Assembly: GCA_905236395.1 (NCBI GenBank)
Contig: CAJOPR010000010.1
Span: 1 to 33,173 of the forward strand
DNA: 33,173 bases
DNA from: an uncultured Bacilli bacterium
GTDB taxonomy: Bacteria; Bacillota_I; Bacilli_A; RFN20; CAG-826
Reading direction: 5' to 3'
How positions within the stretch are numbered: the first letter of the stretch is position 1; each line of letters starts with the position of its first letter. Below, in pieces: positions 3,121 through 9,042 of this stretch. The notes below the pieces were generated by a model, which had not been told where the DNA came from, ran no database searches, and worked only from the letters and a program-made list of their open reading frames with translations. The position numbers and the translations under genes are program-made.

Positions 3121-4116
3121 ATGCAAAACGAAGAAAAGCAAGGCATCGAACAAACCAATACTGAATCAGTTGTGAATAATGATTCTTCAACTGATGAAGT
3201 CATTGTGGATAAGCCAAAAAGAAAAGTTAAAGTCTCAACAATTGTGACAACCTCAATCGTTGTGACCACCGCCATTGCCGCTGGATTAGCGACAGGGATT
3301 ATTTTTGGTAAGCTCATGTCTACTGGCGACGTCGAATTGCCTCCAATTGAAGAGGGTGTGGAAATGGATTATGACGCATTGCTAGAACGCTATGCAGAAG
3401 ACAACGATCCAAACCACTACAAACCTCATGAATTAGCGAATATCTCTTGGAACTTATATGCCAAGAAGGAAAACACTTATTCTTGGGGTAGAGGAAAAGC
3501 TCACGCCGCTATCGTTGACCAATACACTTATTCCTATGATCTTAGAAGAGGCGATTTGTTTTATGGTGAATCCGTTTCTTCTAATAAAGGAATGAAAGTC
3601 AAACAGGTTGCTGTTAAGTATTACATGAACTCTGAAAACGTTAAGACTTACAAAGGCTCTGGAGCAGAGCTTGGACCTGTTCGTGCTAACTGGAATGAGA
3701 ATTCCGAAATCGTTGAAACATTCGAAGAATATGAAAATAAATGGGGCAAATTATTAGGTAGACCATGCATTTTCATTATTTCTCCAAGAACTGTTTTAAC
3801 TGAAACATTAACTAGAGATGCTGATAATAACTATGTTATTGAGATGGATATGGATTTAGTGAACTCTGTTCATAGATATATGAGACAGATGATTACTATG
3901 TCTGGATTAACATCCGCTCCAACATTCCATAAAATGCATCTCAAGTTTATTTTAGATGAGAACCTAAATTTGAAATATTTAAGATCTGAAGAATCTTATA
4001 CCGTTTATGTCGTGGGTAAAAATGACTCAGAAGGTTTCTTCGAAACATTCTTCTATCATGAAGCAACTCAAGATATCCCACCAATTCAATCAACATTTAA
4101 TTACGAGGAAATATAA
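3121..4116 (+). CDS. Single-pass membrane-anchored surface protein, function unknown
   Basis: I do not recognise this 331-aa protein. Residues 1-35 are a charged cytoplasmic tail (acidic, then KPKRKVK). One hydrophobic segment at about 37-64, rich in T, I, V, A and G, follows. The remaining roughly 265 residues should be outside the cell. The ectodomain alternates short strands and ends with a stretch (residues about 235-310, with IEMDMDLVNSVHRYM, then FHKMHLKFILDENLNLKYL) that recalls the beta-rich folds of LolA/LppX-type lipid-binding proteins; this is a by-eye resemblance only. No Shine-Dalgarno precedes the ATG, and TATAGT lies 11 nt upstream, so the leader would be about 4-5 nt. It is followed after 1 nt by the 1034-aa protein gene, implying one operon and probably one complex. 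Confidence 0.8.
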   Translation: MQNEEKQGIEQTNTESVVNNDSSTDEVIVDKPKRKVKVSTIVTTSIVVTTAIAAGLATGIIFGKLMSTGDVELPPIEEGVEMDYDALLERYAEDNDPNHYKPHELANISWNLYAKKENTYSWGRGKAHAAIVDQYTYSYDLRRGDLFYGESVSSNKGMKVKQVAVKYYMNSENVKTYKGSGAELGPVRANWNENSEIVETFEEYENKWGKLLGRPCIFIISPRTVLTETLTRDADNNYVIEMDMDLVNSVHRYMRQMITMSGLTSAPTFHKMHLKFILDENLNLKYLRSEESYTVYVVGKNDSEGFFETFFYHEATQDIPPIQSTFNYEEI

Positions 4117-4117
4117 T

Positions 4118-7100
4118 ATGAAAATTTGGAAGACGATTTTACTACAAACAGGCATATTTACTTCTGTATTCGCGTTGGGCGCAGGCGCAGGTTTCTTAAC
4201 CAACTACCATAGAGGCGAAACCAAACAAGCCGCTCCTATTCAAACTCAAGCTGAAGGTGATGAAATACCACCATATGTGGAAACTCCTACTGATAAGTTC
4301 CTCAATAATTTAGTCAACGCTAAAGCATTAGCTGGTGATATTGATTTACACATTTCTCCAGTTAAAGAATCTAATGATGAAATTCCATCATCCGCGAAAA
4401 GAGCTCTTACTGATTTCAGTATCAGCGATATTGACTTATCGATTAAAAATTTAGAAGTTTCTATCGCAGACTTCACAAACATCAAAGTCGCTGGTGACAT
4501 CAATGTCAAAATGGGTAACTTAGATATTACTGCTTCAGTTAAGTATATCGATAACACAATCTATTTAGATTACGCTGATACAAAGTATTACTTAGAAACA
4601 AGCGATATTACTGATGTTATGGGCATGCTCCCAACGGTCGGAACAACTTTAGAAGTTCCAGAAGAATTCCAAAACCTTGATATCGATGGCTTGACTAAAT
4701 CATTGCAAGGTATGGAGGAAGTTATTGAAGACGACAAACATTATTTCATCTTTAACTTCTCTGATGACATTCAAATCAACTTACTCTCTGATGATGAATA
4801 CCATATGGTGGGTGTTGAACTCCCAGGTATTAATCTCATGGGTATGAATATATCCGCGGAGAGCACATTACGCACATTAGATAAAGACATCGAAACCTTA
4901 GTGAAACCAGCAGATGGCCAATATAAGAAATTTAGACCTGCTTTCACTTTAGTGAATGATGTTATTGATTTAGTGAATAAGAGATCCGCGAACATCACAT
5001 TAGATGTTGATGTTAATAAGAAAGCTACGGTTGGCTATTCCAAATTCATTAGCTTGGACGGCAATGTTGATTTCAACATTAATGATCTCAAAGTTTTAGC
5101 GGACTTAACTGTTGGTTTTAATAATAAAGACTACAACGTCAAAGCCGCTTACGCTGATGAAACAATCTATGCTTCTTATAAGAACTTTAATTTATCCATC
5201 ACCAATCAATCCGTTTTATCTTTAGTCAAACTATTTGAAGATAAGATTCCAGCGGATGCTTTAGATGATGTTATGGATAAAGTTGGTAGTGTGGCAGATG
5301 AAATTGACATCGATCAAATTCTCCAATACGTCACCGACTTACCAACCTATGTCCAAAACTTTGATTTAACTGAAACAAGTTTATCACTTGATTTCGATCC
5401 ATCTTACTTTGGATTACCAGTTCAAAAGTTTAATATTGCAATTGAATTCGATAGCAATTCTATTAAGTCTGTCGCTGTTAGCGACCTCTGTTATGGTGAA
5501 TATCAAATCAATGTAAAATTAGATGTTGATAGTTATCAGACAATTGAAATCAACCCCGCAAACTATGTTGCAGTTGATCCTGCCTTATCTTTAATTGATA
5601 CAGTCACTGACTTAATCAGTTCTGATAAGTTTGGCGTTGAATTCACAGTCACCACAGATGATGGTGATAGCACCACAAATGATTTAGATGCTTCTGGTGT
5701 CTTCCATTTCGCTTTAAGAGATAAGACCGAAGAAGAATTTGCTAACACATTAATTAAGTCTCACCGTACATTTGACTACGGCGCAGGTGAATTAACAATT
5801 CATGATGGTGACGGCTATCCACACAACCTTATTGTCGATGCTGAACCATTTACTCAAGAATTTGACGGTCACGTTTTATTCTCCTATGGAGGAACAACAA
5901 CTCACAGAACCAACGCTAGAATTGACTATGCGACATTTGATGCGCTAGTGGATAAAGTAATTACTTTATTCGAAAGTGAAGATCCACACGTTATGGAAAT
6001 CTTTGGTGACATGCTTAAGAGCGCTGAAGATAGCCCATTAGCGGTTATCTTCGCCAGCAAGGAACCTGCTGATTATTTGAAATTACTTGATTACGATATC
6101 ATCACAAGTTTAGACATTACTCCAAGCGAGATTAAAGTTACCGTCAATGGTGCTATTCTCGGATTTGAAGAAATGAATCCAGAAATCACCATTAGATACT
6201 CTGAGAGCAGCTTAGATGGTATTGATATTGCTGGTATCAATTTAGGCGGAAAAACCATCAATTTCTCCGCAAATCTCTTACCTTTTAGCGAATCTGAGTA
6301 CGGAAAATACAATTTAGATGAAGATCCAAATACCTACATTGATCTATCCACAATTTCTAAGCTCGTTGAAGAAGTTCTCAACACATCTGAAATGAGCTAC
6401 TTCCACGCGAAAGGAACGATCGACTTTGACTTAGATAGTAGTTTCTTATCAGCCCTCAGTTCTGTTATTGGAAACAAAACAATGAAAGCTGATTTACAAA
6501 TTAATACCAATGGTGGCAGAACTAAAGTTCTCGCTCATATGACTGACATTCCTGTTATCATGGCGGTTTCAGAACACTACAGCACAGGTTTATTAGGTGA
6601 ATGTAGCAAAGAAAGCTATTTGATGTTTGATAATCAATCCAACAGTGCTTCCACAGTTGGCGAGACTGGTATCTTCCACATCTGGCGTCATGATAAGTGG
6701 TTCAATTGGGGCAACAAAACAGCAGACTTATATTCCAAATATGACACCCCGCACATGCTATCCAATATCGTTACAATTTTGATGTATGATTTCATGGGTC
6801 TTGATTTATCAAAATTTGGTGATATCACAAACATCGAAAGTAGTGGTGGTCAAATCCATTACGAAAACATCATTGAGACATATGAGTACAAGAAAAACTT
6901 CTCATTGCAAAATACTTACTACAACGGTGGCGCTGCTACAGCGGTTGATAAATACAAATTCGCTATTAACATTGGTGAATTAGCACAATCCGATGTTTTA
7001 AAGACATTATCAGTAACCATGTACTCCAGAAATGAAAAACTCTGTGGTGTTGAAATTGATATGACATTGAATCCAGCAGTCGCAATGACATTGAATCTCA

Positions 7101-7222
7101 AGATGTTCTTACAAGACGATACATCATACACACCAATTGATGATATGATGATGGCTAACGGAACATTAATGAGTGCTTATGCTGCCGCTCATGCTAATGA
7201 CCCATTAAACAGCATTAAATAA
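4118..7222 (+). CDS. Large modular secreted/membrane-anchored protein, function unknown
   Basis: A 1034-aa protein of unknown function. An N-terminal hydrophobic segment (residues about 5-27, Gly/Ala rich at its end) acts as signal anchor or signal peptide; there is no obvious lipobox Cys. The rest appears to be about four related modules starting near residues 58, 280, 490 and 725. Each begins with a short amphipathic helix (NNLVNAKAL, VNDVIDLVNK, SLIDTVTDLI, SKLVEEVLN) and continues as many short beta strands, as in NVDFNINDLKVLADLTVGF. Module ends also match (GINLMGMNISAESTL near 238-252; GINLGGKTINFSANLL near 697-712). The composition is acidic and Cys-poor. GAGGAA (4105-4110) lies 7 nt before the ATG at 4118, which rules out the longer frame that overlaps the previous gene. 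A terminator follows at 7231. Confidence 0.8.
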   Translation: MKIWKTILLQTGIFTSVFALGAGAGFLTNYHRGETKQAAPIQTQAEGDEIPPYVETPTDKFLNNLVNAKALAGDIDLHISPVKESNDEIPSSAKRALTDFSISDIDLSIKNLEVSIADFTNIKVAGDINVKMGNLDITASVKYIDNTIYLDYADTKYYLETSDITDVMGMLPTVGTTLEVPEEFQNLDIDGLTKSLQGMEEVIEDDKHYFIFNFSDDIQINLLSDDEYHMVGVELPGINLMGMNISAESTLRTLDKDIETLVKPADGQYKKFRPAFTLVNDVIDLVNKRSANITLDVDVNKKATVGYSKFISLDGNVDFNINDLKVLADLTVGFNNKDYNVKAAYADETIYASYKNFNLSITNQSVLSLVKLFEDKIPADALDDVMDKVGSVADEIDIDQILQYVTDLPTYVQNFDLTETSLSLDFDPSYFGLPVQKFNIAIEFDSNSIKSVAVSDLCYGEYQINVKLDVDSYQTIEINPANYVAVDPALSLIDTVTDLISSDKFGVEFTVTTDDGDSTTNDLDASGVFHFALRDKTEEEFANTLIKSHRTFDYGAGELTIHDGDGYPHNLIVDAEPFTQEFDGHVLFSYGGTTTHRTNARIDYATFDALVDKVITLFESEDPHVMEIFGDMLKSAEDSPLAVIFASKEPADYLKLLDYDIITSLDITPSEIKVTVNGAILGFEEMNPEITIRYSESSLDGIDIAGINLGGKTINFSANLLPFSESEYGKYNLDEDPNTYIDLSTISKLVEEVLNTSEMSYFHAKGTIDFDLDSSFLSALSSVIGNKTMKADLQINTNGGRTKVLAHMTDIPVIMAVSEHYSTGLLGECSKESYLMFDNQSNSASTVGETGIFHIWRHDKWFNWGNKTADLYSKYDTPHMLSNIVTILMYDFMGLDLSKFGDITNIESSGGQIHYENIIETYEYKKNFSLQNTYYNGGAATAVDKYKFAINIGELAQSDVLKTLSVTMYSRNEKLCGVEIDMTLNPAVAMTLNLKMFLQDDTSYTPIDDMMMANGTLMSAYAAAHANDPLNSIK

Positions 7223-7230
7223 TTACAATA

Positions 7231-7260
7231 GGGTTCGGATAACCGAATCCTTTTATTTTT
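7231..7260 (+). terminator. Intrinsic terminator of the surface-protein operon
   Basis: An 8-bp stem GGGTTCGG (7231-7238) / CCGAATCC (7243-7250), with one G-T pair and loop ATAA, is followed by TTTTATTTTT. It begins 8 nt after the stop codon. Confidence 0.93.
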
Positions 7261-7263
7261 AAT

Positions 7264-7293
7264 TTGATATTGTTTAGCGCATACATATATAAT
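7264..7293 (+). promoter_or_regulatory. Promoter of the rny operon
   Basis: TTGATA (7264-7269), an 18-nt spacer and TATAAT (7288-7293) form a near-consensus sigma-A promoter. It starts just behind the previous terminator. Transcription should begin near 7300, giving a leader of about 170 nt before rny. Confidence 0.8.
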
Positions 7294-7299
7294 TAACAC

Positions 7300-7462
7300 G
7301 TACCCGTCGGAAGGTACTTACCTATATATTCTCTAACGAGAACCTTATTATCAGGCTTTGCCTGTAAATATATATTTAAATCCAAAACCCCCTACGGGAA
7401 TAGTAGGATTTTTAGGTAATATAGTTACTTTGTAACTATTTTGGTGTAAACCTAAGAAAGGA
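7300..7462 (+). promoter_or_regulatory. Structured 5' leader of rny, candidate cis-regulatory RNA
   Basis: Helices readable by eye: GTACC/GGTAC (7300-7304/7313-7317); TTACCTA/TAGGTAA (7318-7324/7413-7419), a perfect 7-bp closing stem; TATATT/AATATA (7325-7330/7367-7372) nested inside it; CTC/GAG (7331-7333/7338-7340, loop TAAC); CAGGC/GCCTG (7352-7356/7360-7364); CCTAC/GTAGG (7391-7395/7403-7407) followed by five T; and ATAGTTAC/GTAACTAT (7421-7428/7432-7439) followed by TTTT. ACCTA at 7450-7454, touching the ribosome binding site AAAGGA (7457-7462), can also pair with TAGGT (7413-7417), competing with the closing stem. I do not recognise T-box, purine, SAM, TPP, preQ1, THF or ydaO-type signatures. 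Confidence 0.6.
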
Positions 7463-7470
7463 ATACTATT

Positions 7471-9042
7471 ATGATGGTATTATTTGATGCTATGACTATA
7501 GTGCTTCCAATAATTTGTGGCGTTGCCGGTCTTTTAATTGGGGCCGCAATTATCCTCTTTGTTCCTTTCTTTAAGAAACAAAGAGCAAACAAAAATGCCT
7601 CTAAGATTATTAGAGACGCTGAAATCAAAGCAGAACACATCGCTAAAAACGCACAGTTAGATGGCAAACAAGCTGTGTATGAAATGAAACAAGAAGCCAA
7701 TAAAGAAATTCACGAAAGAAAACAAGAAGTTATCAATCAAGAGAATAAACTCTCTTTGAGAGAACAAAACATCGATCGTCGTGATGCCGCTTTATTGCAA
7801 AAAGAAACCGCTCTTGAACAAAAGAACGAAATGTTAACTAGACGTCTTAAAGATGTCGACAAGAAAGAGCAAGATTTACAAGAGAAAATCGATAGTATTA
7901 TCGCCGAACTTGAAAAGGTCGCTCAAATGTCTACACAAGAAGCTAAAGATGAATTAATGCAACGTGTAGAAAGCAAAATTTCTAAAGAAATCTCCGCTTA
8001 CATCAAAGCGAAGGAAGAAGAAGCTAAGGAAACCGTTAACGATAAGGCTAAAGAATTACTCGGTATGGCTTGTGCGAAATACGCTCAAGAAGTCACAACT
8101 GAAAAGACCGTTTCCGTCGTCGCTTTACCAAGTGATGAAATGAAAGGTCGTATTATCGGTCGTGAAGGTAGAAACATTAGAACTATCGAACAACTCTGTG
8201 GTGTTGACTTAATTATTGATGACACACCAGAAGTTATCACAGTCAGTTGTTTCAATCCTATTAGAAGAGAAATCGCTCGTATGTCATTAGACGCTTTAAT
8301 CAAAGATGGTCGTATTCAACCAGGTCGTATTGAAGAAATTGTTGAAAAGTGTAAGAAAGAAGTGGAAGAAAGCATCCACAAGACTGGACAAGAAGTCGCA
8401 TTCAAACTTGGTTTACCAAGAATTAACAAAGAGTTACTCGACTACGTCGGTAGATTAAAATACCGTACCTCTTATGGTCAAAACGCTTTAGACCACTCTA
8501 TTGAAGTTGCCTACTTAGCAGGTACAATGGCCGCGGAACTTGGTTTAGATCAAAACTTAGCCAAACGCGCAGGCTTGTTACACGATATCGGTAAAGCCGT
8601 TGACTTCGAAGTCGAAGGCAGCCACGTCGAATTAGGCAGCCGTTTAGCCAAGAAATATGGCGAACCAGATGTCGTTATCAATTCTATTGAATCTCACCAC
8701 GGTGATGTTCCAGCGAAATCTGTTATCGCTAACTTAATTCAAGCCGCCGATACATTATCCGCAGCAAGACCAGGCGCTAGAAGTGAAATGCTTGAAAACT
8801 ACATCAAACGTATTGAACAACTCGAATCGATTTGTAAATCATACGATGGTGTATATCAATCCTACGCCTTACAATCTGGTCGTGAATTACGTGTTATGGT
8901 CATCCCAGATAAGATCGATGACATTGGCGCGTTCCACTTAGCCAGAGAAATCAGAGAGAGAATTGAAAATGAAATGACCTATCCAGGTCAAATCAAAGTC
9001 TCAGTCATCCGCGAATACCGCGCGGTTGAAACAGCGAAATAG
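7471..9042 (+). CDS. rny: Ribonuclease Y
   Basis: RNase Y is the membrane-bound endonuclease that starts mRNA decay and processes structured RNAs in many Firmicutes. The 523-aa protein shows the complete layout. The N-terminal membrane segment is at about 9-33 and a long charged coiled coil at about 38-195. The KH RNA-binding domain has [10 protein letters not shown] (216-225). The HD domain has H342 in ALDHSIEVA, the metal pair H371-D372 in [10 protein letters not shown], and ESHHGD near 397-402. The conserved C-terminal domain ends in [13 protein letters not shown]. Two ATG codons are adjacent at 7471; AAAGGA lies 8 nt upstream of the first. It leads an operon with ymdB, miaB and a YmcA-family gene, which in Bacillus are genetically tied to RNA turnover and tRNA modification. 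The structured leader suggests post-transcriptional control. Confidence 0.97.

Follow-up and report, generated by a model that had tools for sequence, protein, structure and literature searches.

The stretch of DNA analyzed here (the window, 33,173 nucleotides [nt]) is contig C10 of the genome of an uncultured Bacilli bacterium (978 kb in 85 contigs). On its forward strand, positions 7471 to 9042 encode ribonuclease Y (rny, 523 amino acids; TIGR03319, 683 bits against a cutoff of 454), the enzyme that initiates mRNA decay in these bacteria, and a search of 58 relatives gave an rny match in every one. On the 3' side of rny lie a ymdB-type phosphoesterase gene (TIGR00282) and then miaB, and the gene on its 5' side, which has no family match, ends at position 7222. 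Between recA and rny, positions 3121 to 7222 hold two large open reading frames without any NCBIfam match; the second has a signal-peptide-like start, and the two probably encode secreted or anchored proteins. The window itself begins with the 3' part of a class B RNase P RNA (positions 1 to 168), cut by the window edge. The relatives that a pattern scan of GTDB brought up are metagenome assemblies deposited under the names Erysipelotrichaceae, Bacillales, or Bacilli, and many of them come from samples of animal guts, including the rumen.

The rny gene appears to have a transcript of its own. An intrinsic terminator of the preceding gene (7230 to 7251, forward strand; a nine-pair stem with five G-C pairs, followed by TTTTATTTTTA) would insulate it, and a strong promoter follows at 7264 to 7293 on the same strand (−35 box TTGATA at 7264 to 7269, an 18-nt spacer, and −10 box TATAAT at 7288 to 7293; 11 of 12 matches), in agreement with an earlier note on this DNA that had placed the transcription start near 7300 on the basis of a well-formed promoter. 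Given this terminator and this promoter, with a predicted start at about 7300, rny is most likely transcribed separately, with a leader of about 170 nt. Many relatives have a similar hairpin and T run 5' of the promoter, and in relatives a −10-like box lies about 6 to 10 nt 5' of the first leader hairpin. As there is no ATG within 7300 to 7470, no leader peptide is evident.

The leader, all on the forward strand, consists of a 5'-terminal hairpin (P0), a closing stem (P1) that encloses three hairpins (P2, P3, and P4), two further hairpins (P5 and the short P6), and the Shine-Dalgarno sequence. P0 (7300 to 7317) pairs GTACC at 7300 to 7304 with GGTAC at 7313 to 7317 and covaries in relatives, where pairing is kept as GTACC/GGTAC, GTATC/GATAC, GTGC/GCAC, or GTAGC/GCTAC; nearly all family leaders examined have it at their predicted 5' end, even those whose remaining sequence has diverged. 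The 5' arm of P1, TTACCTA (7318 to 7324), is near-invariant in the clade, gives way in sister genera to different sequences that also pair, and pairs here with the 3' arm TAGGTAA (7413 to 7419). It is followed by a conserved AU-rich junction segment, TATATAT (7325 to 7331; UAUAGAU in many relatives of the alignments), whose last letters also begin the 5' arm of P2 (7329 to 7342; TTCTC at 7329 to 7333 with GAGAA at 7338 to 7342). In P2, 94% of cells are paired, mostly by conserved or G-U pairs, and the hairpin is altered or missing in some genera. P3 (7346 to 7370) combines an upper stem, CAGGC/GCCTG (7352 to 7356 with 7360 to 7364), with an AU-rich lower part (7346 to 7349 with 7367 to 7370) and conserved flanks (UUAUUAUC and GUAAAUAUA), and it shows compensatory changes (CAGG/CCTG, CGGG/CCCG, CAGC/GCTG, and CAAGC/GCTTG). 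P4 (7378 to 7411; AAATCC at 7378 to 7383 with GGATTT at 7406 to 7411, from folding) is variable, with only 54% sequence conservation in the genus, and is followed by a short U run.

Downstream of P1, P5 (7421 to 7439) pairs ATAGTTAC at 7421 to 7428 with GTAACTAT at 7432 to 7439; a hairpin occurs at this place in 47 of 55 leaders, in about 30 different sequences, against 5.3 expected from shuffles. P6 is a mini-hairpin (GGT-GTAA-ACC, 7443 to 7452) that reads GTC-loop-GAC in most congeners. The Shine-Dalgarno sequence, GAAAGGAA (7456 to 7463), has a counterpart in nearly all leaders as GAAAGG or a similar purine-rich site. The seven-pair closing stem with its enclosed helices and hairpins, and the run of five T after one hairpin (TTTTT at 7409 to 7413), had been described in the earlier note and are indeed present; P0 and P5 are additions to that structure. 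A further hairpin lies around the rny start codon itself (7462 to 7481; AATACTAT, a loop with the ATG, and ATGGTATT); it is kept in five of the six genus leaders checked, whereas the sixth and the leaders of other genera lack it. The rny mRNA of Bacillus subtilis has likewise been reported to be structured around its start codon.

Sequence conservation points to selection on the leader. Between congeneric species, positions 7300 to 7377 are 85% identical, compared with 59% at third codon positions of rny, 59% in the promoter, and 40% at the end of the upstream gene; the segment containing the 3' arm of P1 (7412 to 7420) reaches 97%. Folding of single sequences is less clear. The window leader folds better than its shuffles to a moderate degree (z = −2.3), and the mean z of the core over 56 leaders is −3.0. 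The free-energy minimum of the window (−47.4 kcal/mol) does not include P1 and contains instead an alternative pairing with ACCTA, whereas the fold with P1 enforced is nearly isoenergetic (−46.1 kcal/mol), so that single-sequence folding does not decide between the two.

The comparative support for the structure is much stronger than that from single-sequence folding. In a model-fitted alignment of 72 distinct sequences, which leans towards the structure, 97% of cells were paired and the covariation score was 0.259, compared with 0.130 after shuffling and at most 0.068 after sliding, and higher than in any control of either type. A structure-blind alignment of 32 sequences gave 0.098 against 0.063 for shuffles (0/500), with P1 to P3 96% paired and few changes. 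An R-scape-like, tree-based test yielded zero significant pairs on 57 close sequences aligned in a structure-blind manner, as the stems hardly vary among these sequences and P0 is badly aligned; we therefore turned to deep relatives and to a shuffle test at the level of helices. The segment directly after P0 is swapped in sister genera for other sequences that still pair with a segment 5' of the start codon, namely TTATTACC/GGTAATAA, TTAAAGTCATAGA/TCTGTGACTTTAA, TGATATATAGAA/TTTTATATATCA, CCTAAACATTTAT/ATAAGTGTTTAGG, AAAAATCG/CGATTTTT, CCCATAGA/TCTGTGGG, and TAACTATA/TATAGTTA. Against dinucleotide shuffles, P1 pairing in 19 genera outside the seed clade gave a Fisher combined p of about 3e-6, with 11 of the 19 individually not below 0.1, anchors set by eye from the promoter position, and g4 scored on a truncated leader. 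On these comparative grounds, we regard the replacement of P1 in sister genera as the decisive evidence for structure. Lack of support for the closing stem in relatives had been named beforehand as an outcome that would speak against the proposal, and P1 passed this check, its pairing being kept in the sister genera. The structured leader is real. In g18 and g25 (L121, L122, L123, L127, L217, L219, and L220), a CCCA directly after P0 has two possible partners, a TGGG close by, at the position of P2, and a segment with GGG farther off, at the position of P1; these pairings might be true exclusive helices.

The element is exclusive to rny and to one bacterial family of uncultured gut Bacilli. 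By BLAST, each of the six genomes of the genus has the leader, and a covariance model (R1) built from 18 leaders matched 76 of 224 family genomes, in 74 of them in front of rny. There was one match per genome except in G005, where two rny genes and two leaders (L033 and L037) lie on different contigs, possibly as a result of a mixed assembly. We regard the two weak matches away from rny (L131 and L132, E of about 0.01) as chance hits. Scanning about 85,000 species for the pattern returned 44 matches, 43 of them rny leaders: 40 stand in front of rny by tblastn, and three (L141, L152, and L178) are cut off at the locus edge and have flanks that match known rny leaders. The remaining match, from Nitrospirae (L156), had neither rny by tblastn nor a model match and was rejected. 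Outside the family, R1 found nothing at an E value of ≤0.001 among 279 genomes of the order and 395 of the class (sets that include family members), and on inspection the fold was absent from the rny leaders of other families. In another family of the same order, three rny leaders (L027, L064, and L065) instead have ATGGA...TCCATTCCGTAT in common, a conserved motif located where their 5' end is predicted; separate leader types may therefore exist.

With strict and permissive searches of Rfam, the leader gave no match at the gathering score, either in the window or in the relatives, which bears out the statement in the earlier note that no known riboswitch consensus was recognizable, and no match to rne5 (RF00040) was found in 7200 to 7500 even at E values up to 10. 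Nor does rny appear in the main text of either of two large surveys of noncoding RNAs in bacteria. Judged from sequence comparison, the leader is best read as a previously uncatalogued, family-specific cis-acting RNA element. Structured autoregulatory leaders of decay endonucleases are already known from Escherichia coli rne; the leader described here differs from it in fold, gene, and lineage.

The earlier note had further proposed a two-state switch, in which the 3' arm of P1 would pair instead with ACCTA (7450 to 7454) beside the ribosome binding site. This pairing is possible in the window, but mutually exclusive helices could not be confirmed across relatives: complementarity of the P1 3' arm to the ACCTA site was no better than shuffled (mean p of 0.61 over 56 leaders; p of 0.22 for the window). 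Most of ACCTA falls within P6, whose 3' arm is the ACC, and congeners have at this site the unrelated small GTC-loop-GAC hairpin. A conserved switch would be expected to keep the complementarity, and since no enrichment was seen, the switch is unsupported. Shine-Dalgarno occlusion was not seen either, accessibility being slightly above that of shuffles (mean rank of 0.64). P4 was rejected as a terminator, as it lacks a strong stem, its U run is mostly 3 to 5 nt (in 46 of 56 leaders), which is too little for strong termination, and its strength is not conserved. Overall, we found no conserved expression platform, that is, no terminator or Shine-Dalgarno occlusion exclusive with an aptamer, and by its unkept ACCTA pairing, free Shine-Dalgarno sequence, and weak P4 U run the element does not resemble a riboswitch acting by termination or occlusion.

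The conserved structure, the exclusive link to rny, the promoter context, and the absence of a conserved terminator or occlusion switch are directly supported by these data. From them, and from precedent, we infer recognition and cleavage by RNase Y, a protective role for P0, and negative feedback. We hypothesize, at about even chances, that the leader is an RNase Y autoregulatory target limiting the enzyme's own production, a possibility already raised in the earlier note. P0 at the 5' end of the transcript would shield it from RNase J and pyrophosphohydrolase, while the P1-closed junction would present conserved AU-rich single strands beside P2 and P3 and leave the Shine-Dalgarno sequence free. 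RNase Y in excess would recognize and cleave the AU-rich segments of the leader, removing P0 and giving entry to RNase J, so that the amount of rny mRNA would fall. As long as other RNA keeps RNase Y occupied, the leader would stay intact and rny would be translated. The genome encodes two RNase J-like proteins, one of them over the TIGR00649 cutoff. Autoregulation by RNase Y seems the simplest reading because the element belongs to a single gene, lies at the 5' end, has AU-rich strands and a free ribosome site, co-occurs with RNase J, and has a precedent in B. subtilis.

The RNase Y of B. subtilis cuts the 160-nt leader of its own mRNA, mostly within the first 50 nt, which opens it to RNase J1 (PMC10303841). 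RNase Y cleavage is governed by the sequence immediately 3' of the site together with a structure a short distance of a few nucleotides beyond (PMC11321564). The gene and the possession of an own promoter are the same in the two cases, and the lengths are similar (about 160 nt there and 170 nt here). However, A+U makes up 76% of the rny 5' region of B. subtilis, which has one stem-loop (Korobeinikova et al. 2023, PMC10303841), no family-wide conserved fold has been described there, and regulation by RNase Y, inferred here, is proven in that species. The E. coli rne 5' untranslated region (rne5, RF00040) is likewise a structured leader of a single gene, that of the main endonuclease initiating decay, and feedback through mRNA stability is a further proposed similarity; the enzyme (rny, TIGR03319, rather than rne/RNase E), the phylum, and the fold all differ. 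According to work cited in PMC10303841, a stem-loop of the rne leader is bound and not cleaved.

Several points weigh against autoregulation. Known B. subtilis RNase Y sites share a weak consensus (PMC11780869), so that binding is unpredictable from sequence. Autoregulation also works in B. subtilis, for which no fold of comparable conservation is described, so that a large structure would be needless for mere cleavage, and the strongly conserved unpaired bases would suit another protein or a ligand too. A bolder proposal, to which we give somewhat less than even weight, is that the leader represents a new class of RNA, an "rny element" through which the specific recognition of a leader fold shared across the family would control a decay endonuclease. 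Bound by RNase Y or a degradosome partner, it would possibly be a dedicated sensor of that protein's own free activity and not just any leader open to cleavage.

Among the alternatives, it is unlikely that another protein (a degradosome helicase or an RNA-binding or ribosomal protein) binds the leader and adjusts the translation or stability of rny. A conserved hairpin with conserved flanks in front of a single gene, as in P3 here, is typical of autoregulatory protein-binding leaders such as those of ribosomal proteins. However, such leaders usually block the Shine-Dalgarno sequence or cause termination, neither of which is seen here, and there is no candidate protein. To a constitutive stabilizer, in which the 5' hairpin and compact fold would protect an important mRNA without feedback, we assign the same low probability: it would account for the persistence of P0 in otherwise diverged leaders, but it has no need for near-invariant unpaired bases or a conserved P1-to-P3 junction. 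A ligand-binding riboswitch controlling rny, the resemblance raised in the earlier note, is improbable. The multibranch junction with strongly conserved unpaired segments and the near-isoenergetic alternative fold of the window would fit such a device, but its restriction to rny in one family, the lack of a conserved terminator or anti-Shine-Dalgarno, the unconserved alternative pairing, the AU-rich conserved loops, and the absence of an Rfam match do not favor it. That the fold is a functionless chance structure of an AU-rich leader, as the z of −2.3 and the window minimum without P1 might suggest, is hardly credible given conservation above third codon positions, the exclusive position before rny, and the replacement of P1 and P5 with pairing kept.

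The rules by which RNase Y selects its targets are hard to read from the weak consensus of the known B. subtilis sites (PMC11780869), and the rny leader offers a compact test object for recognition by RNase Y or its partners, since across many genera the sequence of P1 is free to change and P3 and its flanks stay. The finding also suggests that structured leaders serve for self-limitation in decay enzymes of distant phyla, RNase E in one case and RNase Y in the other.
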